35,447 nucleotides of DNA from positions 1 through 35,447 of the IMG/VR virus record IMGVR_UViG_3300003324_000812. One strand, written 5' to 3'. The position numbers were made by a program, and so were the translations under genes. Of this stretch, positions 846-35,447 are shown piece by piece. A model generated the notes under the pieces. That model made no database searches. It worked only from the letters and a program-made list of their open reading frames with translations, and was not told the DNA's origin. The DNA comes from a virus. The number at the start of each line of letters is the position of its first letter. The stretch's first letter is position 1.

Positions 846-1048
846 ATATTGATTATCCTTTTCACCTTAGGATGACTAATTTTATGGAGCAGTTTCACAT
901 TTTCAATATGTCTCTTAGCTTCTTCTTCTGTACTATCAGAAAAATATCCGTTATCCCAAGAAAGCCAAGATAAAATTCCATCCACTCCTTTTGATTGAAT
1001 TTGAAATGTTCCATTATCCATCTCTAATATTCTAAATTTAGGACTCAT
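842..1048 (-). CDS. Hypothetical phage protein, 68 aa
   Basis: A small polar protein (MSPKFRILEMDNGTF...) with a tryptophan-rich centre (GILSWLSWDNGYF) and a helical C-terminus. I chose the ATG at 1048 because it overlaps the upstream stop as ATGA (1045-1048); the ATG at 1063 has no ribosome site. The W-x2-W core followed by an EEEAKRHIE helix is a pattern seen in short phage proteins of unknown role. No catalytic motif is visible. Confidence 0.7.
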   Translation of the reverse strand: MSPKFRILEMDNGTFQIQSKGVDGILSWLSWDNGYFSDSTEEEAKRHIENVKLLHKISHPKVKRIINI

Positions 1049-1248
1049 TCCATTACCTGCCATTTATTACTAAATAATTCTTCAACTGTCGGCGTAAATT
1101 CTTTGAGCTGCATGCTCATAAAATCACAATAAACCAATGCATGATCAGGCATTGTTGATTTAATTATGTAATTAACACCATCATCCCAGTCTTTATGGAT
1201 AATGCGTTTGTATGATAGTATTTCATTTTGAAGTTCGAATAGGGTCAT
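1045..1248 (-). CDS. Divergent Tad2/DUF2829-like protein (possible anti-Thoeris)
   Basis: 67 aa. It keeps the outline of DUF2829 (Tad2) proteins: an N-terminal helix, a basic stretch leading to a tryptophan (KRIIHKDW, W21), a short YI strand, a variable middle, and the closing block PTVEELFSNKWQVME (W63), comparable with the family ending S-x-E-D-x-x-A-x-D-W-E-V. W21 and W63 sit at the same positions as in the more typical homologue at 34895-35095. Tad2 proteins sequester the signalling nucleotide made by Thoeris. This one is distant, so the assignment is an inference; another small phage fold is possible. Confidence 0.5.
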   Translation of the reverse strand: MTLFELQNEILSYKRIIHKDWDDGVNYIIKSTMPDHALVYCDFMSMQLKEFTPTVEELFSNKWQVME

Positions 1249-2489: not shown

Positions 2490-3110
2490 TTATTCTTCAT
2501 ATTCTCTTACATATTCCATCAATTTATTTGCTTTGTCTGGATGACGCATTTTACGCAAAGCTCTTGCTTCAATTTGCCTTACCCTCTCTCTAGAAATTCC
2601 ACCTTTATATCCGTCTAATTCTAATCTTTCACCTATTTCCTCTAAAGTATATTCTTTGTCATATTCACCTAATCCCATTCTCATTTGAATTATTTTTTTT
2701 TCTAAATTAGTTAAGCTTTCAAGAACAGTTTCTATTGAATTCTGCATCTGATCTATTGAATAATATTCTTCTAATAATTTTTGATTATCCGATTGATTCA
2801 TAATAAATATTGCTTCTGCTTCTTTAACTTTTAATGTTTTCTTATTTGTTTTAAGATTAGCTTCCATTTGACTAGCACTAAATATTTCTTCTGGAATACA
2901 ATTTAACTCATCACATAATTTTACTATTGACTTTTTTATCCTTCCCCTATCATCAAAAATTGATTCTTTCATATTCAAAAACTTACATAACCTTCCATAC
3001 GAAATACCTGTAGCTTTACAAAATATATGTGGGCTTGAATATCCTTGCTCTTCTATTTTGGTAAGAATTAAATTATTTCTTACTTTCATATCTATCCGAT
3101 ATTCTTCCAT
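2490..3110 (-). CDS. Chimeric XRE-type HTH / sigma-70 region 4 transcription factor
   Basis: 206 aa. Residues 8-78 look like a Cro/CI (XRE) helix-turn-helix domain (ATGISYGRLCKFLN, then KLCDELNCIPEEIF). A linker of about 50 residues follows. Residues 132-192 are sigma-70 region 4: LTNLEKKIIQMRMGL, then TLEEIGERL and the classical 4.2 helix SRERVRQIEARALRKMRHP. Sigma region 2, needed for -10 recognition and melting, is absent, so it cannot be a complete sigma factor. Region 4 normally binds the beta-flap of RNA polymerase and a -35 element; with an XRE domain the protein could redirect host polymerase. A GAGGAT ribosome site precedes ATG 3110. Its place between terminase and late accessory genes suggests middle/late gene control (inference). 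Confidence 0.85.
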   Translation of the reverse strand: MEEYRIDMKVRNNLILTKIEEQGYSSPHIFCKATGISYGRLCKFLNMKESIFDDRGRIKKSIVKLCDELNCIPEEIFSASQMEANLKTNKKTLKVKEAEAIFIMNQSDNQKLLEEYYSIDQMQNSIETVLESLTNLEKKIIQMRMGLGEYDKEYTLEEIGERLELDGYKGGISRERVRQIEARALRKMRHPDKANKLMEYVREYEE

Positions 3111-3144: not shown

Positions 3145-3357
3145 TTAATTTTTTGGAGGTTTAGGCAATCTCATAAAATGAGATATTTCGTTAAGTTCTT
3201 TTCCATCATTTGTATAATATTCATAATGTGGTAATTGATGATTTTCATTACCAAATGGATAATATTTTCCAAACCCAATAATTCCTGATTTCTCTGAATA
3301 TAATAAATATGATTCGTCTGTAGATACTTTTTGTTTATTTATTCTTTCCCATTTCAT
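3145..3357 (-). CDS. DUF551-like protein
   Basis: 70 aa from the ATG at 3357, which overlaps the terminase stop as TGATG and has an AAGGA ribosome site; a TTG three bases earlier is less likely. The N-terminal KWERINKQKVSTDESYLLY and C-terminal HFMRLPKPPKN fit the DUF551 plan, where a Trp-containing start leads to an ending like H-W-M-P-L-P-x-P-P. Function is unknown. DUF551 proteins are common small accessory proteins of tailed phages. Confidence 0.7.
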   Translation of the reverse strand: MKWERINKQKVSTDESYLLYSEKSGIIGFGKYYPFGNENHQLPHYEYYTNDGKELNEISHFMRLPKPPKN

Positions 3358-4913
3358 CAAAAAATCCTTAATACAGGGTTAAACATATCCACTTCTTTTT
3401 TAGGCGCTTTATCAGCCAATATTCTACTAGCAGCAAACTCTAACAAAATATACTGCAACGCATCTTGTAAATGCGAAGCCATGTTCTTATGCGGCACTTC
3501 TTTGTAACGCTCTTCACCACCAACACTAATACGCTTGTAAATGTAATCTTTAACAAAACCTTTAATCAGTTTAGGACATCCTTGGCGACATACAATCAAT
3601 TTAGGCTGTCCGTCTATCATGCCATTCAGAAAATACCGTACAGATCCTATTCTTGGCTCTAAATCATTAGTATTAGCCGGCGCTGTATCAATACCAAGTG
3701 AGTTAAGCTCACCAATACAACTTAATTCCTCCATGATGTCATCACCAGCAATACCACTAGGATCGGCTCTTGAAATCCCTATTTTGTTATAAGGAAAATC
3801 TCTTTGTAAGCTTGGGAGCACAATATCTTGCGCAAATGTTCTAATACCAATATCTTCCCCTTGATATTCTTTCAATATCCTTATCTGTCCTCTTGGAGAA
3901 ATCTGAATAACAACACAAGCTGGTGTTAAGCCAAAGTCCCAGCCTAAATGTATCGGATCTCCCTGTATTGCTGTTATTTTATCAACCGCATGTAAATCCG
4001 AATTAAACTCAGGATAAACACGCTTACCAAAACCGACCGATCCATATTCACCCAAACAATAGACTTTAACAAAGTCTTCCGTCTGTCCTTCAGCAAGCTT
4101 TGTATAGTAGTCACTCGCCAAATTAGCAGCATTATCGCAATTCGGGTTTTGATACCACTTATTGTCCTCATCTTTCAATAATCCGGGTGGTTGGTGAAAT
4201 ATTTTGTAGCTTTCCAAAGTTTTAAGCTCGAAGTCGCGATATATCCAATGGTCAATATCGGGAGGATTAGTGTCGCATATAATACCAGACCAATAATCAG
4301 TGGGACAAAAAGCACGAGACGGATAACGTTTATTAACACGACCTTTGAAATGAGCCAAAGTTCCTTGCGGTACTTCTGATAATTCATTAATGTAACATCC
4401 AGTAACTTCTAATGATTTGATTTTACGTAAGTCTTCTTCTCGGTCAAGCGCTATGAATATTAATTCTAATTCAACAATTCCATTACCATCATTAAAGATA
4501 TGTTCATAAGTTAGCAATGGCTTTTGACGCTTTCTAATCTCACCTAATTCTCCGAACCAGGCCAACCATGTTTGGAGTGTTGTTGATTGGAGTTCTCCAC
4601 TTGTGTTTCTGACGATTGCCCATCTTGATCTGCGTTTGCCGTTGTTCCAAACAGGCATATTAATTGATCGTCTAACAATCTCGTTAACGCACCACGTGCT
4701 TTTCCCACTTCCATAAGGACCAATAATGAGACGCACAAAAGAATTATCAGCGTGAGCAATATCCCCTGTAGCAGTCGGCAAATAGATTCTGTCTTTTTCG
4801 TTACCATGAATTATTGTTTCCTTACCATTAATAGTTATGTGTTTTTGATCTTGGTGTTTTAGAGAGTGCTTGATTGAATTTATTTCTTGACGCAATTGCG
4901 CAATCGATGTCAT
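3357..4913 (-). CDS. Terminase large subunit
   Basis: 518 aa, close to P22 gp2 (499 aa). This is the packaging motor ATPase with a C-terminal headful nuclease. Walker A is GPYGSGKST (65-73); the Walker B region with its catalytic acidic residue is CYINELSE (173-180). An RNase H-like nuclease is indicated by WDFG (D326), then SRADPSG (D384), and an acidic residue in LQDALQY near the C-terminus. The ATG overlaps the stop of the zinc-ribbon gene upstream (ATGA, 4910-4913). The small terminase lies two genes upstream, so the pair is co-transcribed leftward. It acts at the portal vertex of the procapsid. Confidence 0.93.
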   Translation of the reverse strand: MTSIAQLRQEINSIKHSLKHQDQKHITINGKETIIHGNEKDRIYLPTATGDIAHADNSFVRLIIGPYGSGKSTWCVNEIVRRSINMPVWNNGKRRSRWAIVRNTSGELQSTTLQTWLAWFGELGEIRKRQKPLLTYEHIFNDGNGIVELELIFIALDREEDLRKIKSLEVTGCYINELSEVPQGTLAHFKGRVNKRYPSRAFCPTDYWSGIICDTNPPDIDHWIYRDFELKTLESYKIFHQPPGLLKDEDNKWYQNPNCDNAANLASDYYTKLAEGQTEDFVKVYCLGEYGSVGFGKRVYPEFNSDLHAVDKITAIQGDPIHLGWDFGLTPACVVIQISPRGQIRILKEYQGEDIGIRTFAQDIVLPSLQRDFPYNKIGISRADPSGIAGDDIMEELSCIGELNSLGIDTAPANTNDLEPRIGSVRYFLNGMIDGQPKLIVCRQGCPKLIKGFVKDYIYKRISVGGEERYKEVPHKNMASHLQDALQYILLEFAASRILADKAPKKEVDMFNPVLRIF

Positions 4914-5095: not shown

Positions 5096-5274
5096 TATTT
5101 GCGTAAACCACGAAGTGTTTTAGCTAAGTTAGCTCTTTTAGCTAAAGTTTTATTCTTTGAATGCGAAGCTTTATTCAACTTCGCTTCAGAAATCTTTTCA
5201 CCCTTTTTAACTTTCAGTGAAGAGCGTAAAGCGCCAGGGGATTTTATCGCTTTAGCGATCCAATTCTTCGCCAT
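5095..5274 (-). CDS. Conserved basic phage protein MAKNWIAKAIK..., 59 aa
   Basis: ATG at 5274 has the strong ribosome site AAAAGGAAATAAAG. The peptide opens MAKNWIAKAIKSPGALRSS and continues with KKGEKI, SHSKNKTLAKRANLA and TLRGLRK. I recognise this as a small family common in podo- and siphoviruses, with the pattern W-I-x-x-A-I-K-x-P-G-A-L-H at the start and K-R-A-x-L-A-x-T-L-R at the end. Function unknown; its strong positive charge suggests DNA or capsid contact. It overlaps the small terminase gene by 23 bp and couples to the zinc-ribbon gene by TAATG. Confidence 0.8.
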   Translation of the reverse strand: MAKNWIAKAIKSPGALRSSLKVKKGEKISEAKLNKASHSKNKTLAKRANLAKTLRGLRK

Positions 5275-5677
5275 CTTTATTTCCTTTTATTAAGAGCTTC
5301 AATTCTTCAACTTCTTGAGCAAGTTCTTGAATTGCTACATTAGCGCTAAAATCTTTTTGATAGGCATGCTCAAGTGTCCATTCAGCACCTTTATGTCCTT
5401 TTTCAGCATTTTTTGCCTTTTCTCTGCACCATTTTACTTCTTTTTTCTTCACATTGGCTAGAGACTGAACTAAATATGTACAAAGTGATTCTTTATCTTC
5501 ATAAAGATCACATTCACCTTGTTTAATCCAGTTATAAAATATTCTTTCGCTAATAAGATGGGATTCAGCAGCTAATTTTTGAGTAGACCCTTCAGCAATA
5601 TCTTTAACAATAGAATCAATAAGTGGTTTATTGAGCTTCTTAAAGAGATAGCCTCGTTTATTTGGCTTAACATCCAT
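5252..5677 (-). CDS. Terminase small subunit (HTH type)
   Basis: 141 aa from ATG 5677 (AAAGGGA ribosome site; an upstream TTG has none). The N-terminal half has a helix-turn-helix typical of small terminases: STQKLAAESHLISERIFYNWIK, then GECDLYEDKESLCTYLV. The centre KKKEVKWCREKAKNAEKGHK followed by GAEWTLEHAYQKDF matches the family pattern of (A/E)-x-x-x-L-E-R-x-Y-P-x-x-(F/W). The C-terminal helix ELAQEVEELKLLIKG likely mediates oligomerisation. It recognises the packaging site and hands DNA to the large subunit encoded 340 bp downstream. Confidence 0.82.
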   Translation of the reverse strand: MDVKPNKRGYLFKKLNKPLIDSIVKDIAEGSTQKLAAESHLISERIFYNWIKQGECDLYEDKESLCTYLVQSLANVKKKEVKWCREKAKNAEKGHKGAEWTLEHAYQKDFSANVAIQELAQEVEELKLLIKGNKDGEELDR

Positions 5678-5711
5678 TACTTGCAATTCCCTTTGCAAAT
5701 TTAATGGTTAA

Positions 5712-26369: not shown

Positions 26370-28484
26370 TTACTCCGGTAATATCTCATATGACCAAGAA
26401 GCACCTAAAACAACAAATGAAAGCGGATTAAAAAATTCTATTTTTGGAATAAATGCCTGACCTCTAACCGTAGTTCCTAATTTGCGCCATAAGGTTCTAA
26501 ACGTGCGCTCTCCTACTAATCCCATTGGTGCTTGAATTAAATTACCGTAAGTTTGTCCGCCATCTTTTGATATCGATAAAAACACTCTCGGAGATACATC
26601 ACGATAAATAGGTAAAGTTTGATCAGTAACAATCTCAAAACTATTTTCTGTCAAAATATCTTCATTATTTTCAGTTAATAAATTTAAATTATCAAAAATT
26701 AAATTTCTGTTTTGACCTTGCAATAAATCAAGCTGAAATCTATCAATTCTCATTCTTTGATAGCCAGGAGGGCAAATGGGTCTTCCTATCCTCATTCTTC
26801 TAATATCTTCACCATCATTTTCAGGCAACAAAGGATCAACCACATAAAGAATAGGACTCTGATAATTACCAACTAAATTTAATCCTTTATAATAAACATG
26901 CGTCTGAGCAACATGCCTTGAACCATCTAACATCTCTTCTTCATGCCATAATCTTGTTGCATCTTGACTAGGATCACTTTGCGTTGCGTTATAGACAAAC
27001 GTATGATCAGCGGCTGTAAAATTCATTCTATAAAATACTAATCCATTTTCTTTTAATAGAAATGCTCTACAATCTGTTATTTCATTTTCTGCCGCATATT
27101 CTGCTAATGTTGAATCTAAAGAATTAGTACTAACAGGTTGGGCCTGAGTACCAACTACTTGCATAACTGGTCCTTGACCATCTCGAGACTGAGATAAAAA
27201 AAACATCGCATCAAATCCAGTTGATATACTTCCAGGCGCCACCGTTCCATATTCTATTAATAATGAATTATTTCTTCTAAAAGGAAGATTAGTGCCGACA
27301 CCTAAATTTTCCCAAATTTCAGTATAAAACTGAGAAAATAAAAATAATTTTTCATGTAAAGTTCTACATCCAACAATAGTGCCAGGATGAGTTGTAATTG
27401 AGCCTTGTTGTAATTGACCCGTGGATTGAATGATTTCATTAGGTCCGCCATTTGATAAAAGATCGATGGCAGTTCCTCCGAAAGCATTAGATAACGATGT
27501 CGCTAACTTTAAAGTGGTTGCAGATTCATTAATTACATAATAAGTCGTTGAAGTATTTAATGGATCTGCTAATTGTCCTTGAATACTACAAGTTGGTGTA
27601 GAATCTACCGTAAGATTTATAGGAGTATTAGAAATTGCATCTGCATAAGTTGCAGCAACTTTAATAGTAGTTGGACTAACATTAATTGCATAATAAGTAG
27701 TGCCAGAAACTAAAGGAGTTGGCAAAACTCCACCTCCGGAAGTAGATACTCTAACAGGAACTCCGGTTCCATAATTAGTAGTGCTTGCCATTGTTAATAA
27801 ATCTGTTGCGGCCGCTGCTGTAAATACATCAATATCAGTTGGCTCTTTTAATATGACAGATACACCAGTCGCATAATTTGCAGTGCTAGATAATGTTAAA
27901 AGATCAGTCGCGGCACTTGCTGAAAAAGTACTATCATCAGGCCCCCAAACTAATCCTTGATTAAATTGTGATAATTGAAAAGTATTAGTATTACCATTTG
28001 CAACTACAAAAAATCCATCTAAATAGCAACAATCAATCGGTTGAGCTGGAAATGATGTGTCTGTAATTTGTGTAAATGTTCCATAAATTGTATCGTAGAT
28101 ATAACCATGAACACCATCTACAAATAAAATTTGATAGGTATTAGCATCAATTCCAACATATCCAGTTGAAGTAGTAAATGGAACACTTCCATTTAATAAT
28201 GTAGGAACTAAAGATGTTCCGATCATTTCAACAAGCCAAACTGAATCTCCTATCACATGATAAGTATTTGTCTTAAATAAAAACGATGCTCTAAATCCAT
28301 TGTTAGTAGCGCCAAAAGAGACATTTGTATTATCAAGTCCAGATGTTGGCAATAACATCTTAGGTTTTTTAGATTTTGGATCATTGTATTGAAAAAGATT
28401 TACCGATCTTTCTGAATCCATCGGACTATAACGTTGGTCATTATAACTTCCAACTATGTCATAATCTTCAGTAGTTGAACCCAT
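26370..28484 (-). CDS. P22 gp10-like tail/packaged-DNA stabilisation protein
   Basis: 704 aa from ATG 28484 (a TTG six bases earlier is less likely). The N-terminus RYSPMDSERSVNLFQYNDPKSKKPKMLLPTSGL and the blocks VDGVHGYIYD, CCYLDGFFVVANGN, LHEKLFLFSQFYTEIWENLG, then FFLSQSRDGQGPVMQV are characteristic of the gp10 hub family. P22 gp10 is 472 aa; the excess is partly a Thr/Ser-rich beta insertion at about residues 187-360 that carries repeats shared with the fibre at 20844-22715. The C-terminus ends in a strand-rich block (WRKLGTTVRGQAFIPKIEFF). It closes the portal channel below gp4. Confidence 0.88.
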   Translation of the reverse strand: MGSTTEDYDIVGSYNDQRYSPMDSERSVNLFQYNDPKSKKPKMLLPTSGLDNTNVSFGATNNGFRASFLFKTNTYHVIGDSVWLVEMIGTSLVPTLLNGSVPFTTSTGYVGIDANTYQILFVDGVHGYIYDTIYGTFTQITDTSFPAQPIDCCYLDGFFVVANGNTNTFQLSQFNQGLVWGPDDSTFSASAATDLLTLSSTANYATGVSVILKEPTDIDVFTAAAATDLLTMASTTNYGTGVPVRVSTSGGGVLPTPLVSGTTYYAINVSPTTIKVAATYADAISNTPINLTVDSTPTCSIQGQLADPLNTSTTYYVINESATTLKLATSLSNAFGGTAIDLLSNGGPNEIIQSTGQLQQGSITTHPGTIVGCRTLHEKLFLFSQFYTEIWENLGVGTNLPFRRNNSLLIEYGTVAPGSISTGFDAMFFLSQSRDGQGPVMQVVGTQAQPVSTNSLDSTLAEYAAENEITDCRAFLLKENGLVFYRMNFTAADHTFVYNATQSDPSQDATRLWHEEEMLDGSRHVAQTHVYYKGLNLVGNYQSPILYVVDPLLPENDGEDIRRMRIGRPICPPGYQRMRIDRFQLDLLQGQNRNLIFDNLNLLTENNEDILTENSFEIVTDQTLPIYRDVSPRVFLSISKDGGQTYGNLIQAPMGLVGERTFRTLWRKLGTTVRGQAFIPKIEFFNPLSFVVLGASWSYEILPE

Positions 28485-28486
28485 AA

Positions 28487-29227
28487 TCAATAACTCAAAA
28501 TATTAGGCCAATAGAAAGGCTCCGGAGCTGTTAAAGTAACTGATGGTCTAATGGTAAGATCAGTTTCGTTAGCATTTTTCAGAGTCATGTAATAATCTTC
28601 ATATTCCATTTCATTTTGTTGTGGCCAGTTGCCAGATGGATAATAAGCAAGAAATTTTCTCGCTAAAGCGTATTTTAAAAATCCATAATAAAATGGTGGC
28701 AATTCTTCTAAATTGCTTTGGGCTTCCAATTTATTAATCATCACTTTAACTTGAATTGAAAAAGGATATGGTTGATCAGGAACCGGATAAACCGTAATAA
28801 AGCTTTCTTCTGATTGTTTGTTTAAAAAGATAAAACCAGGACGTGCTAATAAATTAGTTTGCCTTACAACGCCCCAATAAGTTGCCTTATTAATAATACG
28901 CAATGGGTAAACTAACTGTGTATCACCTGAGGTTGGAACCGTATAATTCGCAAATGTTAAATCAACCACTCGATCTGCTGTAATATCCGCACCCAATATC
29001 ATATCTGATATTGAATAAGTGTCTTGTCCAACAGTAAAAGTATGTTCAATTGTTGTTAAGAAAGGAATATAAATACTATCCGATGAGAACTTATCAAGTA
29101 ATTCATTGATTAATTCAAGACCAGTAGAAAGCATGAAGGCGTCAGGGGTTTCTCCAACGCCTAGCTCACCTAAAAGATACAGGGAATTAACGATAAGATC
29201 GTTTGTCGTCCTGACAACCTGCGCCAT
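28487..29227 (-). CDS. P22 gp4-like tail accessory factor
   Basis: 246 aa, larger than P22 gp4 (166). The N-terminus VVRTTNDLIVNSLYLLGELGVGETP, then ALELINELLD-type helix (STGLELINELLDKF) and the C-terminal helical FYYGFLKYALARKFLAYYPSG are typical of the gp4 head-completion family. It binds below the portal and joins it to the gp10 hub. Order portal-coat-gp4-gp10 is as in P22. It has a TGA-ATG-type close junction with the gp10-like gene. Confidence 0.85.
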   Translation of the reverse strand: MAQVVRTTNDLIVNSLYLLGELGVGETPDAFMLSTGLELINELLDKFSSDSIYIPFLTTIEHTFTVGQDTYSISDMILGADITADRVVDLTFANYTVPTSGDTQLVYPLRIINKATYWGVVRQTNLLARPGFIFLNKQSEESFITVYPVPDQPYPFSIQVKVMINKLEAQSNLEELPPFYYGFLKYALARKFLAYYPSGNWPQQNEMEYEDYYMTLKNANETDLTIRPSVTLTAPEPFYWPNILSY

Positions 29228-29255
29228 TGGCTTCGCTCCATGCGATTAATCCAAC

Positions 29256-29522
29256 TTACTTAACAGGAAATGCAACCTTATCTAATCCTGCGGTAATATC
29301 ACGAGCTAACTCTTGAGCATGCTCGCCGTTATTACACATATAAGCATTAAATTCCATGGCCTCTGATTTCATATTTGGAGCTCTGCCAGCATATTTAGCT
29401 TGGCTGTTTTGAACTTTCTTTACAAATGCATCTGTTGCGCTATGCTCAGATTCATAACGAGCTTGGCGCGTGTTCATCATCGATGCGTCTTTTCCTGGTG
29501 CGTTGTCGTATCGGCTTTTCAT
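29256..29522 (-). CDS. Hypothetical 88-aa protein in the head region
   Basis: MKSRYDNAPGKDASMMNTRQ... A charged helical protein with ARYESEHSATDAFVKKVQNS and a central NAYMCNNGEHAQELARDI. It overlaps the upstream 68-aa gene by 71 bases. No family is recognised. Position between coat and gp4-like genes suggests a minor head or completion factor. Confidence 0.65.
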   Translation of the reverse strand: MKSRYDNAPGKDASMMNTRQARYESEHSATDAFVKKVQNSQAKYAGRAPNMKSEAMEFNAYMCNNGEHAQELARDITAGLDKVAFPVK

Positions 29523-29658
29523 GATTAATATCCTTTTTAATTACATGAACATCATTAGGGTGTCTAAACCATTTACCAGTTGCCACAAGCTCTTCTCTTT
29601 CTTCCAACGTCACGACTCTCATCTTTTCAGTTGGACTATAAATACAAGCTAATGGCAT
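29452..29658 (-). CDS. Hypothetical basic 68-aa protein
   Basis: MPLACIYSPTEKMRVVTLEE... The segment MRVVTLEEREELVATGKWFRHPND recalls short phage proteins that begin with a strand and an E-x-x-x-L-x-x-x-G-x-W-x-x-x-P-x-(D/E) motif. The C-terminus is very basic (RQRTRKRRIDDEH). A ribosome site (AAGGAATAAAAAG) precedes it, just after the coat gene. Its last 71 bases overlap the next gene in another frame. Confidence 0.65.
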   Translation of the reverse strand: MPLACIYSPTEKMRVVTLEEREELVATGKWFRHPNDVHVIKKDINHEKPIRQRTRKRRIDDEHAPSSL

Positions 29659-29669
29659 CTTTTTATTCC

Positions 29670-30881
29670 TTACGATAAAAGTTTAGTTGCATATTGTGGG
29701 TGCCACTTAAAGCCGCACAAAATATCTATACGCATTAAGTTTTGATATCCCAATATGTCACCAGTTTGTGTTACAGCAAGCGATAGTCCAGTTTCAGGAT
29801 CAATTGCAACGCTGGAATAAGGTACTTGTAATTTATAAAGAGGTGGGCAAACAATATCTAAACCACGAGCTGGATAAGCAACATTGACGTTATAGCTTGG
29901 AACCATCGTCACAACTGCATCATCCGGAATAGCATTGCTGACATTTTGTAATGGGCTTGATGTATCACTGATAATCGTTGGAGCAACAGTGATTGTGACA
30001 GCACCACCACCACTTGAGTTAGCAGCCGATGTAATAACAAACTGCATATCTTGACCAGTAGATGCTCTGCTTAATGGATTAACACTTGATACGCCAGCAA
30101 TCGAGATCAAATCGCCAGGTAAAAAGTAGTTAGTAACACTGATTGTTGCGCCATCTAAAACAATCGTATTTCCCGAAGATACAGCGCCATTAACCAATAA
30201 TGCATCACCAGAGTGCAATCTGGGGCCAGCACCTGCAACGTGGTTTACGATATTTTGAGATTGGAAAATATCAAAATATGATAAATGACCAATTGCTGAT
30301 TGACGGACAATATCTTCGTTAAATACAGGAGTAAAATTATTTAATAATGCTGATTTTAATGCAGATCCATCACGAACAGTCATTGCAAGATAAGCATCGG
30401 AAGAAATATTAACGCCTTGTTCGAGCAATTTTGCGCCAGCTAAATCGACCGTTTGAAAGGAATTAATAGGAGTTCCAGCAGTACCCGCAAAGAAATACAA
30501 ATCAGATTCAGCAGCAGAACAAATATCTCGTTCCATTTGGCTAACGATATTTTGAATCGCTGGCTGAATGAACATACGGGAGAAATCTTCAATACGTAAA
30601 GATAAATCCTGTACCGTATAAGCAATTAACGCATGATATTGATGCGCTACTGTAATTGTTTCAACTGTTTCGATAATATCTTGCGGAACAGCCGTTGAAC
30701 CATCGCCCACAATGAAATTATTTTGACGACGGACTTGTAATGTATCGCCTATTTTATATCCAGAATTTTGAAAATCATCCTGGTAAATTCTTGAACCAGT
30801 CATTACAAAAGGTGCATTATTTGCAAACATCGCAAGTGCTGTATTACTTACAAGCTGCGTATTAATAAATTGATTGGCCAT
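29670..30881 (-). CDS. Major capsid protein (P22 coat type)
   Basis: 403 aa (P22 gp5 is 430). Family features: MANQFINTQLVSNTALAMFANN at the start, then YKIGDTLQVRRQNNFIVGDG, ALIAYTVQDLSLRIEDFSRMFIQPAIQ in the N-arm and spine helix, AYLAMTVRDGSALKSALL, an inserted beta domain (SVTNYFLPGDLISIAGV...), and a C-terminal LDIVCPPLYKLQVPYSSVAIDPETGLSLAVTQ. This is the HK97 fold with the gp5-type insertion (inferred from family). It is assembled on the scaffold encoded just upstream. Confidence 0.92.
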   Translation of the reverse strand: MANQFINTQLVSNTALAMFANNAPFVMTGSRIYQDDFQNSGYKIGDTLQVRRQNNFIVGDGSTAVPQDIIETVETITVAHQYHALIAYTVQDLSLRIEDFSRMFIQPAIQNIVSQMERDICSAAESDLYFFAGTAGTPINSFQTVDLAGAKLLEQGVNISSDAYLAMTVRDGSALKSALLNNFTPVFNEDIVRQSAIGHLSYFDIFQSQNIVNHVAGAGPRLHSGDALLVNGAVSSGNTIVLDGATISVTNYFLPGDLISIAGVSSVNPLSRASTGQDMQFVITSAANSSGGGAVTITVAPTIISDTSSPLQNVSNAIPDDAVVTMVPSYNVNVAYPARGLDIVCPPLYKLQVPYSSVAIDPETGLSLAVTQTGDILGYQNLMRIDILCGFKWHPQYATKLLS

Positions 30882-30938
30882 TGCCAGTTTCTCCAGTCCA
30901 TTGGTAATTCACTTGAATTCAAGAAAATCTTTTTCTTG

Positions 30939-31748
30939 TTACTTCCAAGTGCCCGCTTTCATCCTTTCCCTAATACTTCCAATAGGGGTTTTTTCGGTGA
31001 CCGTGGCTGATGTTGAAACTGGATTTGTTTTGATTTGACCTAATGGTCTTGATGACGACACTTTATTATCACCACCACTAATCAAAGCATGAGACAGTTT
31101 CATCATTTCAGTCGCTTGATCTAATGGGTGGAGTTTTGCAATACGGTTTAATTCTTCGGGATTTTTGCCAAGTTTGTAGAGGACTTCGCCGGCTGATCCT
31201 TTGCCTGTTTTAGGCAGTGTCATTGAAAAGTCGCGCATTGATGGAGTGTATTGTGCATCATCTCCAAAAACCACATCATGAAAGTCGTCGTATTTATCAC
31301 TCATACTATCAAGATGCTTTTGCAATTCACGATATTGCTTATTAACGTGAGCTGCGTGTTGCGCTTCTTGCGCCTTACGCTCTTCCATATCCTTTTGGTT
31401 AAGCACGAGGCTAACTGCCCTGCGAATTCGCTCATCATCGCTGTCTGGCGTTTGGCCATAAGCGGTGGGATTCATCATCTGACTTTGTGCTGGTTGTTGT
31501 TGAGACAATCTAGATTGCATATCGGCAATCCTTGCCTGCATCTCACGCATTTCCCTTTCGTGAGCCCTCTTTTGTTGCTTTAAACGCTTTTGCACATAAA
31601 GAGGATCATTAGATTTATTCCCTGAAGAATCAGTCGATTCGGGTGACTGCTCCTCTGTCGATTCTTCCGGTTCTTGTCCAACACTTTCCATCACTTTATC
31701 AGCAAGACCATCCTGATCTTGACCTGACATATCCTGAGCAATATCCAT
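30939..31748 (-). CDS. Scaffolding protein
   Basis: 269 aa (P22 gp8 is 303). The order is typical: an acidic, disordered N-terminus (SVGQEPEESTEEQSPES), a long charged coiled coil (VQKRLKQQKRAHEREMREMQ and following), a Gln/Pro stretch, and a basic C-terminal coat-binding region (IGSIRERMKAGTWK). It directs coat protein assembly and leaves before DNA packaging. Direct position upstream of the coat gene supports the call. Confidence 0.85.
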   Translation of the reverse strand: MDIAQDMSGQDQDGLADKVMESVGQEPEESTEEQSPESTDSSGNKSNDPLYVQKRLKQQKRAHEREMREMQARIADMQSRLSQQQPAQSQMMNPTAYGQTPDSDDERIRRAVSLVLNQKDMEERKAQEAQHAAHVNKQYRELQKHLDSMSDKYDDFHDVVFGDDAQYTPSMRDFSMTLPKTGKGSAGEVLYKLGKNPEELNRIAKLHPLDQATEMMKLSHALISGGDNKVSSSRPLGQIKTNPVSTSATVTEKTPIGSIRERMKAGTWK

Positions 31749-31986
31749 ATTGTCTCCACATCGGCAATCTCTGCCCCAAAGAAATAAGGCGTCTTTGTTT
31801 TTCGCCCCGTGACATTCCTTATCACGTATGAATTAATCATAATTGTTTTATGTGAAAAAAATAGGTACACCTGTAGACAAAAAATAATATATACTACCAA
31901 TTCAAAGCCTAGCTCGACGGAGCGAAAAGTTGATTCATCATCAACCTGGTTTTGACTAATATGATGAATACTTTGATAAGGTATGT
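31749..31986. other. Divergent gap between scaffold and endonuclease genes
   Basis: 238 bases without a gene. It holds a hairpin GTTGAT-TCATC-ATCAAC (31929-31945) and TTGACT (31952-31957) spaced 16 from TGATAA (31974-31979), a possible rightward promoter for the endonuclease, although it lies unusually close to that gene's ATG. Together with the endonuclease gene it may be the unit that was inserted. Confidence 0.4.
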
Positions 31987-32613
31987 ATGAGAATTTGTAG
32001 AGCGCCAGATTGCGAAAATCCTGCAATAAAGCAAAGAACCGTATGCACAAAACATAAGCATAGATTAAGAAAAAACGGAACTTTTGACATTCCTGAAAGA
32101 ATCCCAAAGGCTGATAAATTACCTGCCGATATTGTTAAAGTATGTAAAGTACATGGGTCATTAAAATATCACGAAGTAAATGTTCAATATTCTAAATATA
32201 AAGATAAAAAATATAAATGGTATCAATGTAAGGAATGTTTATCATTAAAAAAGAAAAGACTTTATGATTTAGATCCTGAAAAATATAATAAACTTTCAAA
32301 AAAGACTATAAATAAAAGAATTGAGAAAGCTAGAAAAAAGAATAGAGAATATCATATCACATGTTATATGACACTTGAAGAATATCATAAAATGATATTA
32401 GACCAAGATAACAAATGTAAAATATGTAAAAAGGAGGAAACTGCAAAGTATAAAAACAATAAAATAAAACGTCTCGCTATTGATCATCATCATGCATCCG
32501 GAAAACCTCGCGGATTATTATGCAGTAAATGCAATACTGCATTAGGATTATTAAAAGAATCCATTGAAATTCTTGAGTCAGCTATTTCCTATTTAAAATC
32601 TTCTATTCAGTAG
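31987..32613 (+). CDS. Endonuclease VII-type homing nuclease
   Basis: 208 aa. An N-terminal zinc finger (CRAPDCE, C20, H23) of the kind carried by phage homing nucleases, a middle zinc-like pair (C81/C84), a basic helical linker, then the recombination endonuclease VII core: CKIC (144-147), AIDHHHASGKPRGLLCSKCN (D166, H167-H169, C179/C182) and the LGLLKESIEIL helix. The His/Asp cluster is the beta-beta-alpha-metal site. It is the only rightward gene in the structural block and ends 11 bases inside the portal gene's 3' end, which suggests a free-standing mobile gene. Confidence 0.88.
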   Translation: MRICRAPDCENPAIKQRTVCTKHKHRLRKNGTFDIPERIPKADKLPADIVKVCKVHGSLKYHEVNVQYSKYKDKKYKWYQCKECLSLKKKRLYDLDPEKYNKLSKKTINKRIEKARKKNREYHITCYMTLEEYHKMILDQDNKCKICKKEETAKYKNNKIKRLAIDHHHASGKPRGLLCSKCNTALGLLKESIEILESAISYLKSSIQ

Positions 32614-34807
32614 AGGACTTTTCTTTATTTTGAGGATTCGAATGCTTATAAAGATCTGCAAGTATTTTAGAAATTTCAATTGAAAAGTCTTCTTTCTGTT
32701 TCTTATGGGCTAAATCATGAGTTACTCTTGTTTTTTCAAGGTTACTTTGGTGATTATATACGTCAAGCTGTCCATCCATTTGTATTTTCTGAGCTTTGAG
32801 CAACATTTCTGCTTTATCTAATTCATGTTGCTGTCTTTTCAATTCAAGCTCTTCTGCTTTTAATTGTAACTGAGACTGCATCTCCTGCATTTGTGCTTGT
32901 TGTAATTGCATTTGCATTTGGGCCATTTGTTGGTTAGGATCAGGCTGTTTGGGGGGAGCAGGTTTCCCTTGTTCTTTTGCCAATACATCAGGTGGAACTA
33001 AACTCTGGAAACGATCTTTAATAGTCGGCATCTGTTGTAAATCTAATTGACTAGCCCAAAGATCAGCTATTAATGGAAATGCTTGTGGAAATGCTTGAAT
33101 AGTCTGGGTGAAAAATTCCAAACTCACGTCCTTTTGCACCGCAAAGCTAGGCCCTGTATCAATTTCAATATCATATTCACCAGGGGTTAATTGATTTTTA
33201 ACTCGGCCATCATCTTGCATGTGGTTAATGATGATAGATTCTGTCTTGCCATCTTTCTTGGATATCACCATCGAGCGTTGCTCATCGCCAATCGTATAAT
33301 CAATTAAATCATTAACTACGCGTCCTGCTTGCTGAATAGCTTGATTAAGATTATCAAAGAAAACATACGCAGACATCGATCCTTCTAACTTACGTTCGCG
33401 TCTAGCCTTTCCAGAAACATCACGACCTTGTAAATCTTCTTGTTCAGAAAATCCAAGAATTTCTTGGATGTCTTGTGTCGCACGTTGTGCGTTATTCATC
33501 AATTGTGGCGATAAATCCCAAGGGGTTTGTTTAATCGGCATTAAACCAGTTTTAGGATCTGGTTTAGCTCTTAAGATACCCATTTGTAATTCAGGATTTC
33601 GCCAGTCTTGTTCATAACCAATAATATTATCAGGTGTCCCTAACCACTGTTCACGTCTTCTATTTTTGATTTCAGCGGCTATTTCAGAATTAAAATAGTT
33701 AACGCATTTTTGGGCATCTCGTGCTTCATGAATAAAAGATTTGGTATATTGCCTACCTTCAATGTAATAACTATCACCATCAACAAATGGAATCGGTAAT
33801 TGCTTAGATGGCCATTCCTCAAAATCAATGATTCTGTCTCGAATCATTCGGTAGTGCATTATTCTATAATCTTGAGTTTGACGCTCTCCAACAACTTTCG
33901 GAATTCCCTTTTCAATGATTCTCGATACAACTGAGCCTTCAACAATTTGCTTCTGCATTTGAAAAGCTTCTTGAGCTTCTTTCCATTCATCCTCATCGAC
34001 AACCATTCCATTTGATAGCTTATAAATAATCAATGGGTACCATTCTTTAACAAATTCATCACAGACTGCAATTGTGTCTCTCGTTTGCCATTGAAAATCC
34101 AATAACATGTAAGGATCAACGAAAGAAACAGGATTTGTTACATAAGGATAGGTTGCAAAAAATTCATCTCGAGTAAAGATAAATGTTCGTGAGCAGAAAT
34201 TTCCATCGCCTTTATGTGGCTTTAAAGCTGTTGGATCCCATGAACACATAGTGGGATCAGGAATAATATCGAAAGTGATAGTTTTATTAAAACTTCTTGG
34301 ACTTTCATAATCAACGCCTACTTGAAATGCTCCAAAACCCATCATTAATGCTGATTTAAATGCTGTTTGATATATCAAATCATTTTGACTTCGATAACAA
34401 ATTGTTCTTATTAAATCAGCTCGTAAATTTATTTCCTCTTGCGATGCGTGCCCAGTTAGAGATCTTACAATCAAATCTGGCTTGTTTTTTCTTTGTTCTC
34501 CGGCTATTTTTTTTGTTGAATCATATAATTTATTAAATGTCATTGCCGGTTTAAATAATCTCGTGAATTCTGAACGCTCTACCGCTGTCCATTGATCACG
34601 TAACACGAAATTCATATCGTCCTTACCACGGACAATATTTTCATTAAAATAGCTATTCCAAGTGTTTTTATTTTTATTCGTTCGTTCTAAAACATCTCTC
34701 TCATCAATTCCAGCTTTATTCAAGCGATCGATGCGTCTTTCTTCCATTTCATGAATTTCATTCGGCGATAAATCTGTGACATTAACGTCACTAGCTTCCC
34801 GTTCCAT
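32603..34807 (-). CDS. Portal protein (P22 gp1 type)
   Basis: 734 aa (P22 gp1 is 725). Family elements are RFDRxxxAGIDERDVLERTNK-like start (RIDRLNKAGIDERDVLERTN), NFVLRDQWTAVERSEFTRLFKPAMTFNKLYDS, ITFDIIPDPTMCSWDPTALKPHKGD, and the wing/stem ALMMGFGAFQVGVDYE. Residues about 610-720 are a Gln-rich coiled coil resembling the P22 portal barrel helix. It forms the 12-subunit DNA channel. AAGGAT lies upstream of the start. Two small genes precede it in the operon. Confidence 0.9.
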   Translation of the reverse strand: MEREASDVNVTDLSPNEIHEMEERRIDRLNKAGIDERDVLERTNKNKNTWNSYFNENIVRGKDDMNFVLRDQWTAVERSEFTRLFKPAMTFNKLYDSTKKIAGEQRKNKPDLIVRSLTGHASQEEINLRADLIRTICYRSQNDLIYQTAFKSALMMGFGAFQVGVDYESPRSFNKTITFDIIPDPTMCSWDPTALKPHKGDGNFCSRTFIFTRDEFFATYPYVTNPVSFVDPYMLLDFQWQTRDTIAVCDEFVKEWYPLIIYKLSNGMVVDEDEWKEAQEAFQMQKQIVEGSVVSRIIEKGIPKVVGERQTQDYRIMHYRMIRDRIIDFEEWPSKQLPIPFVDGDSYYIEGRQYTKSFIHEARDAQKCVNYFNSEIAAEIKNRRREQWLGTPDNIIGYEQDWRNPELQMGILRAKPDPKTGLMPIKQTPWDLSPQLMNNAQRATQDIQEILGFSEQEDLQGRDVSGKARRERKLEGSMSAYVFFDNLNQAIQQAGRVVNDLIDYTIGDEQRSMVISKKDGKTESIIINHMQDDGRVKNQLTPGEYDIEIDTGPSFAVQKDVSLEFFTQTIQAFPQAFPLIADLWASQLDLQQMPTIKDRFQSLVPPDVLAKEQGKPAPPKQPDPNQQMAQMQMQLQQAQMQEMQSQLQLKAEELELKRQQHELDKAEMLLKAQKIQMDGQLDVYNHQSNLEKTRVTHDLAHKKQKEDFSIEISKILADLYKHSNPQNKEKSSTE

Positions 34808-34831
34808 ATGACATCCTTATCATTATGGGAT

Positions 34832-34857
34832 CGCCGGATTTTGTCGCTATTCCGGCG
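34832..34857 (-). other. Portal leader hairpin
   Basis: CGCCGGA (34832-34838) and TCCGGCG (34851-34857) pair perfectly (7 bp, 12-base loop), 25 bases before the portal ATG in an otherwise AT-rich region. No T-run follows on the minus strand, so it is not a terminator. It could tune portal translation or stabilise the message. Confidence 0.45.
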
Positions 34858-34894
34858 GATAGCCAATCACATCAGGGAGATGTTGACGTTAAAA

Positions 34895-35095
34895 CTATAA
34901 CACTTTCCAATCATTAGCTCTATAATCTTCCACAGAAAAAAGATTATTTCCGGCATTTGGATTTGGTTGAGTTAATACTTTCCAGACATGTTTCATTCTT
35001 GGCATTAAAGAAAGATATCCTTCAGCTTCTTCCCATCCTTCTCTAATTACTTTTTCACCTTTTTCTAATGCATCTAATGCTTCCATAAAATTCAT
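34895..35095 (-). CDS. Tad2-like (DUF2829) anti-Thoeris candidate
   Basis: 66 aa from ATG 35095, with GAGGATTTTAGA upstream; a longer frame would overlap the upstream gene. It shows the DUF2829 signature: NFMEALDALEKGEKVIREGW (family pattern NF-x-x-A-L-x-x-x-x-x-G-x-K-V-x-R-x-G-W, W21), a GYLSLMP strand, a variable loop, and the closing SVEDYRANDWKVL (W63). DUF2829 includes Tad2, which binds and sequesters the 1-prime-3-prime gcADPR signal of type I Thoeris. It lies between the promoter-proximal gene and portal, an unusual place. Confidence 0.82.
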   Translation of the reverse strand: MNFMEALDALEKGEKVIREGWEEAEGYLSLMPRMKHVWKVLTQPNPNAGNNLFSVEDYRANDWKVL

Positions 35096-35106
35096 TCTAA
35101 AATCCT

Positions 35107-35355
35107 CTACGGTAGTACAGTTAATTGACAAGATGTTCCGGTAAACACAGGCTTATACCATTGAGTACCATTGGAACCAACAGCTAATATCACATCAGTA
35201 TCTAAAACGCTAAATCCTTGGCTCTTGATATAGTTATCTAAATAACCTGCGGTTGCTATCTGAGATAAGGTATTATTCGGAGCATATAAATGCCCAATTC
35301 GTGGAATGATATTATTTTGACCAGGAAAGTTAATTGTGAATTGATTGACAGACAT
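35107..35355 (-). CDS. Hypothetical 82-aa protein, first gene of the late block
   Basis: MSVNQFTINFPGQNNIIPRIGHLYAPNN, then TAGYLDNYIKSQGFSVLDTDVILAVGSNGTQWYKPVFTG. The pattern is strand-rich with an SNGTQWYKP turn, resembling short phage fibre or decoration segments. A strong AAAGGAG ribosome site precedes it and a promoter candidate lies 35 bases upstream. No family is recognised. Confidence 0.7.
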   Translation of the reverse strand: MSVNQFTINFPGQNNIIPRIGHLYAPNNTLSQIATAGYLDNYIKSQGFSVLDTDVILAVGSNGTQWYKPVFTGTSCQLTVLP

Positions 35356-35389
35356 TTTACTACTCCTTTAGTTAGTGACGCGATGAGAT

Positions 35390-35419
35390 AGTTTATTGTG
35401 ATTTAGGTGATTATGGCAA
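35390..35419 (-). promoter_or_regulatory. Candidate late promoter
   Basis: On the minus strand TTGCCA (35414-35419) and TAAACT (35390-35395) are 18 bases apart, matching 5/6 and 4/6 of the sigma-70 boxes. It is 35 bases upstream of the first late gene and is followed by that gene's AAAGGAG site. A strong -35 with a weak -10 would fit help from the XRE-sigma4 protein. Confidence 0.45.
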
Positions 35420-35447
35420 TAGCATAATAAAAACCCGCCGTGGTGCG

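Follow-up and report, generated by a model that had tools for sequence, protein, structure and literature searches.

The window, which is the whole stretch of DNA that was analysed, is an entire IMG/VR virus record of 35,447 bases with no host attached, and the phage is a podovirus known from metagenomes. An ORF of 66 aa, MNFMEALDALEKGEKVIREGWEEAEGYLSLMPRMKHVWKVLTQPNPNAGNNLFSVEDYRANDWKVL, is found near one end of the record at 34895..35095 on the minus strand, stop codon included. The features of the locus, as well as those of the packaging and head genes with which it is discussed below, are the following:

35107..35355, minus strand: conserved 82-aa upstream neighbour, with homologues in 51 sources (window and related loci)
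35104..35108, minus strand: Shine-Dalgarno-like AGAGG, read from the sequence, sharing bases with the upstream gene's stop codon and lying 8 nt before the ATG
34895..35095, minus strand: short Tad2-like (PF11195) protein of 66 aa (Pfam 39.4 bits for a cut-off of 25; AF2 pLDDT 90.5; Z 8.8-9.7 with PDB Tad2 entries)
34832..34858, minus strand: GC-rich hairpin within the 87 nt that separate the Tad2-like gene from the portal gene (RNA fold of a 101-nt stretch, z -2.8)
32603..34807, minus strand: P22-like portal, the next gene downstream (PF16510, E 1.6e-102)
30939..31748, minus strand: head scaffolding protein (phrog_8865, E 1e-12)
29670..30881, minus strand: major head protein (phrog_283, E 2.4e-52)
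5252..5698, minus strand: terminase small subunit, TerS (phrog_4102, E 6.7e-07)
3357..4913, minus strand: terminase large subunit, TerL, at the upstream end of the accessory island (PF04466; phrog_2, E 3.5e-25; relatives colinear across the window ends)
1045..1248, minus strand: possible additional Tad2-like gene, very divergent, also in the TerL-portal island (PF11195 E 0.068, below the cut-off; AF2 pLDDT 56, poor)

The ATG of the Tad2-like gene lies 11 nt past the stop of the upstream ORF (35107-35355), and the Pfam domain of the protein begins at this ATG. An alternative TTG start would give a protein of 78 aa, overlapping the upstream gene. The earlier note had assigned to the gene a ribosome site of its own, and this is borne out by the AGAGG 8 nt before the ATG together with a purine-rich site, GGAG-type in most cases, upstream of the Tad2-like gene in all 20 homologues inspected. 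Promoter-like matches around the gene numbered 22, compared with 24.3 in shuffled sequence, so no promoter of its own stands out. The hairpin between the Tad2-like gene and the portal gene is no classical terminator because it is not followed by a T-run; it may act in RNA processing or in regulation.

The position directly before the portal gene within the virion operon, which the same note had also claimed, was confirmed: the portal downstream is of the P22 type, and the TerS-TerL-portal-MCP operon is of the late type. A head-closure-type protein is also encoded downstream, on the same strand as the scaffolding and major head proteins. Relatives of the phage (e.g. L021) run colinearly through the junction of the two window ends; therefore, the record looks circularly permuted, and the Tad2-like gene looks to sit in the TerL-portal island once the ends are joined. 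An exact terminal repeat of 12-200 bases was not found in the window. Neither was a nucleotide match to positions 28000-35447 found among cultured phages, nor a close relative of the protein itself in viral_contigs, and the 82-aa neighbour had no match in Pfam, PHROG or NCBIfam.

Two further genes were observed in this region. An Endonuclease VII-type gene (31987-32613, plus strand) lies between the portal and scaffold genes on the opposite strand and overlaps the 3' end of the portal gene. In the TerL-portal island, a Sigma-70 region 4 protein (2490-3110, minus strand), whose C-terminal end matches PADLOC MzaA with an E-value of 2.1e-16, could be a late-transcription factor.

As judged from its profile match, a family profile searched against PDB chains and the predicted fold, the 66-aa protein belongs to the Tad2-like superfamily. 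The DUF2829 signature that had been recognised at both ends of the protein is correct and far above chance. In the profile search against PF11195 (Tad2-like, formerly DUF2829), with a curated cut-off of 25 bits, the protein scored 39.4 bits with an E-value of 9.1e-10, covering profile positions 1-72 of 73. A second profile (A2), built from 21 portal-proximal homologues and searched against PDB chains, found ModTad2 (1.8e-12), AcrIIA7/HgmTad2 (4.9e-10), SptTad2 (2.6e-9) and SPO1 gp34.65 (4.4e-9). The AlphaFold model, a monomer prediction, is confident, with a pLDDT of 90.5. Its 24 best chains in Foldseek were all Tad2/AcrIIA7 with a probability of 1.00, the best E-values being no better than about 0.003, as is expected of such a small domain. 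By VIA-align, the top PDB entries were all Tad2 (Z 8.8-9.7, rmsd 2.0-2.4, 63-64 of the 66 residues), and the entry ranked next, a neck chain of phage 812, reached Z 4.7. The core positions that are invariant across the short and canonical forms are retained, namely M1, F3, A6, L10, G13, R18, W21, L30, D57, D62 and W63. PADLOC and NCBIfam gave no match for the 66-aa protein.

Tad2 is a protein by which phages sequester the immune signals of bacteria, and Tad2 proper is a homotetramer with two inter-protomer gcADPR pockets. The gcADPR pocket is formed by the β1-β2 loop, the β3-β4 loop, β4, the β4-α3 loop and α3, from protomers of different dimers (PMC12043709). According to the same review, α2 and β2 are placed at the V-shaped dimer interface, and an insertion between β2 and β5 of HgmTad2/SptTad2 is the cyclic-dinucleotide site (PMC12043709). 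The window family matches the solved Tad2s over residues 1-35 and again over about 41-67, leaving some 20 residues of the solved chains between the two blocks without a counterpart (roughly SPO1 36-58). With the secondary-structure limits of SPO1 Tad2 assigned from its sequence and the text of the review, we read the absent segment as α2 and its loop. The protein is thus shorter than the full-length core, with 66 aa versus 88-104 for most solved Tad2 chains.

The loops also differ from those of the solved proteins. A WNGK[GN]-type β1-β2 loop is common to ModTad2, AcrIIA7, SptTad2 and SPO1 Tad2 (four of the four aligned) and was found in none of the 21 family members (window protein and 20 relatives). 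In the β4 W-x-x-S-x-x-D segment, the window protein has Asn51 at the position of the Trp present in the solved Tad2s and in 14 of the 21. The family has a motif of its own, PNPNAGNW, in the β3-β4 region, and a search with this pattern matched only members of the same phage group. The pocket-side elements of Tad2 are kept in outline.

Among the solved proteins, SPO1 Tad2 (gp34.65; PDB 8sme, 8smf, 8smg and 8wje), a gcADPR sponge, shares with the window protein the Pfam domain, the predicted fold (Z 9.1-9.7 over 63-64 residues, 28-30% identity), the N-terminal helix/strand and the C-terminal D-x-x-A-x-D-W end, but it is 89 aa long versus 66 and has a WNGK loop and the segment W-V-P-S-Q-T-D, both missing from the window protein. 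ModTad2 (PDB 8v3e and 9eib), a His-ADPR sponge against type II Thoeris, is the best PDB-chain profile match and has a similar fold (Z 8.9-9.2), whereas its length of 88-89 aa, its WNGKGMF loop and its TWTPSVSD segment are different. AcrIIA7/HgmTad2 and SptTad2 (PDB 8kbi-8kbm, 8wjc and 8wjd), solved with cADPR and/or cGG, resemble the predicted fold with Z 8.8-9.4, but they have 101-104 aa and the long β2-β5 insertion of the cyclic-dinucleotide-binding Tad2s, and the corresponding region is shortened in the window protein.

Family membership, the predicted fold and the 11 invariant core positions kept (M1 to W63) would agree with a canonical anti-Thoeris sponge, in which gcADPR or His-ADPR is bound exactly as by SPO1 Tad2 or ModTad2. 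The missing α2 and loop, the WNGK motif in none of the 21 members and Asn51 in place of Trp make this rather unlikely. Since the WNGK loop, the β4 Trp and α2 are lacking, the protein was filed as a member of the Tad2-like superfamily and not as Tad2 proper. In addition, the absence of the α2 segment and the WNGK loop suggests that the ligand and/or the oligomeric state are probably unlike those of SPO1 Tad2. The protein had been noted as a Tad2-like anti-Thoeris candidate. The Tad2-like part is supported by the Pfam profile, the PDB-chain profile and the fold, while the role of a nucleotide sponge against Thoeris is at most putative for a protein of 66 aa without the α2 segment, WNGK or the β4 Trp.

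The distribution of the gene was studied in 65 portal relatives taken from IMG/VR, and the TerL-portal interval was counted in the 48 loci showing both genes. In 25 of these loci the interval contains a Tad2-like ORF, which can precede or follow the conserved 82-aa neighbour and whose distance varies; L012/L014, with a divergent form, and L067, the MAG locus, are counted among the 25. The ORF is missing from the other 23, whose portals are similar. The family scan of 50 records gave PF11195 over the cut-off in 32. Of the 16 records exceeding 30 kb, 15 have one or more Tad2-like domains and one has none; the late gene is present in 10 and the early gene in 10, with both in six, only the early gene in four and only the late gene in four. 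Another of these 16 records, L055/L083, has three small separate Tad2-like genes just before TerL. Within this stretch (L083 764-1484, corresponding to 1236-1956 on the contig of L055), two of the three consecutive genes score below the Pfam cut-off.

The early Tad2-like genes (L071-L074, L077-L081, L084 and others) have two domains in one ORF where they were seen complete, and one is cut by the contig end. They share the phage group, the Pfam domain and similar short domains with the window gene, but the ORF is fused, with about 130-145 aa, and is located near DUF669/replication genes rather than the portal (e.g. L071 730-1122 and L073 818-1252). In the window, no fused two-domain Tad2-like gene was found at the replication-module site near DUF669. 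Early and late copies are interchangeable across the relatives, which suggests a protein acting in trans; a soluble counter-defence protein of this kind fits the accessory distribution with early and late copies more readily than a part of the virion does.

A virion or assembly protein, for instance a neck or portal-associated factor reusing a Tad2-like fold, would explain why the gene adjoins the portal and why, outside the Tad2 entries, the model most resembles chain S of 8qkh, from the phage 812 neck (64 residues, Z 4.7). However, common arrangements reach a Z of this size, and the genome of phage 812 has no PF11195 match. A virion structural protein would be conserved wherever the portal is shared, but nearly half of the 48 loci lack the gene and relatives hold copies in the replication module instead. 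Overall, a structural role is improbable. SPO1 gp5.3, with a weak PF11195 match just before the portal, is a Lys-rich low-complexity protein, and with this and the lack of a PF11195 match in phage 812 the neck-protein reading drawn from 8qkh_S was dropped. It is very improbable that the protein is a regulator, or interacts with the host in another way, through a Tad2-like fold that binds no nucleotide, since the match to PHROG 643, labelled transcriptional regulator and with weakly similar proteins (E 0.04), is marginal and the structural neighbours of known function are signal sponges, even if many PF11195 proteins have no tested function.

The Tad2-like gene is real, selected, accessory and short. 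The dN/dS was 0.035-0.06 in the three closest homologue pairs, indicating purifying selection, and 0.09-0.29 in other close pairs with computable dS, all values being approximate because dS is high. Mean identity is 45% for the Tad2-like protein versus 72-73% for portal and TerL. Distances are correlated between portal and TerL (rho 0.30, p 0.009) and not between the Tad2-like protein and portal (rho 0.08, p 0.33); since portal and the conserved neighbour gene are also uncorrelated (rho 0.08), the decoupling of the trees is a weak test, merely supporting evidence for reshuffling.

Late or constitutive expression rather than the usual early timing had also been proposed for the gene. From its place in the operon, late expression would be expected, but the premise that this would be unusual is weak, since cultured phages carry PF11195 genes among late ones. 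Matches over the cut-off are found in the late region of Pectobacterium phage Momine, with large genes on one side and tail fibre genes on the other, in Vibrio phage 1.127.O just before the major capsid region and in phage CBW1004C-Prop1 between lysis and terminase genes. Late placement is therefore not peculiar to the window gene among Tad2-like genes. The review describes the major head protein of the phage as the target recognised by the Thoeris sensor ThsB1 (PMC12043709), so late production of a sponge would coincide with the trigger.

From the sequence and the model, we consider it fairly probable that the window protein is a counter-defence protein that binds an immune signal. It would be soluble and fast-evolving, its Tad2-type fold would be a minimal one, and its expression from the TerL-portal accessory island would be late. 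The protein may oligomerise, and a small nucleotide-type immune signal, perhaps derived from ADP-ribose or related to such a derivative, would sit in a pocket between protomers that the retained β1-β2, β3-β4 and β4-α3 elements form, so that the captured signal would be kept from its effector. The signal and/or the assembly probably differ from those of SPO1 Tad2. If made together with portal and capsid, the sponge would be present when the defence trigger appears. Against this signal-binding reading, the pocket-side loop motifs of the solved proteins are altered, the α2 segment placed at the dimer interface by the review (PMC12043709) is missing, and PADLOC and NCBIfam do not recognise the protein. 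A more specific version is only tentatively put forward: a clade-specific minimal Tad2 may have dropped α2 and rebuilt its pocket loops (PNPNAGNW) for a different immune signal, and its expression with the capsid genes would make it present together with the capsid trigger of the defence.

Regarding the host, of which the record gives none, no Thoeris or CBASS locus could be linked to the phage. A MAG contig labelled Planctomycetota (L067) carries a relative of the phage, and TIR-domain matches were found on other contigs of the same bin, the link between bin and phage being unsafe. The STALD/ThsA search of this bin gave no match, and the controls of the same search were also without a match.

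If the protein binds no signal, it would be a warning that a PF11195 match should not always be taken to mean anti-Thoeris. If a signal is bound, the protein would indicate how far a Tad2 sponge can be reduced in size, and it could reveal an ADPR-type signal not yet listed. In either case, the phage group, with late single-domain genes, early two-domain genes and copies in the packaging region, is a natural series in which fold architecture, expression time and ligand choice can be followed.
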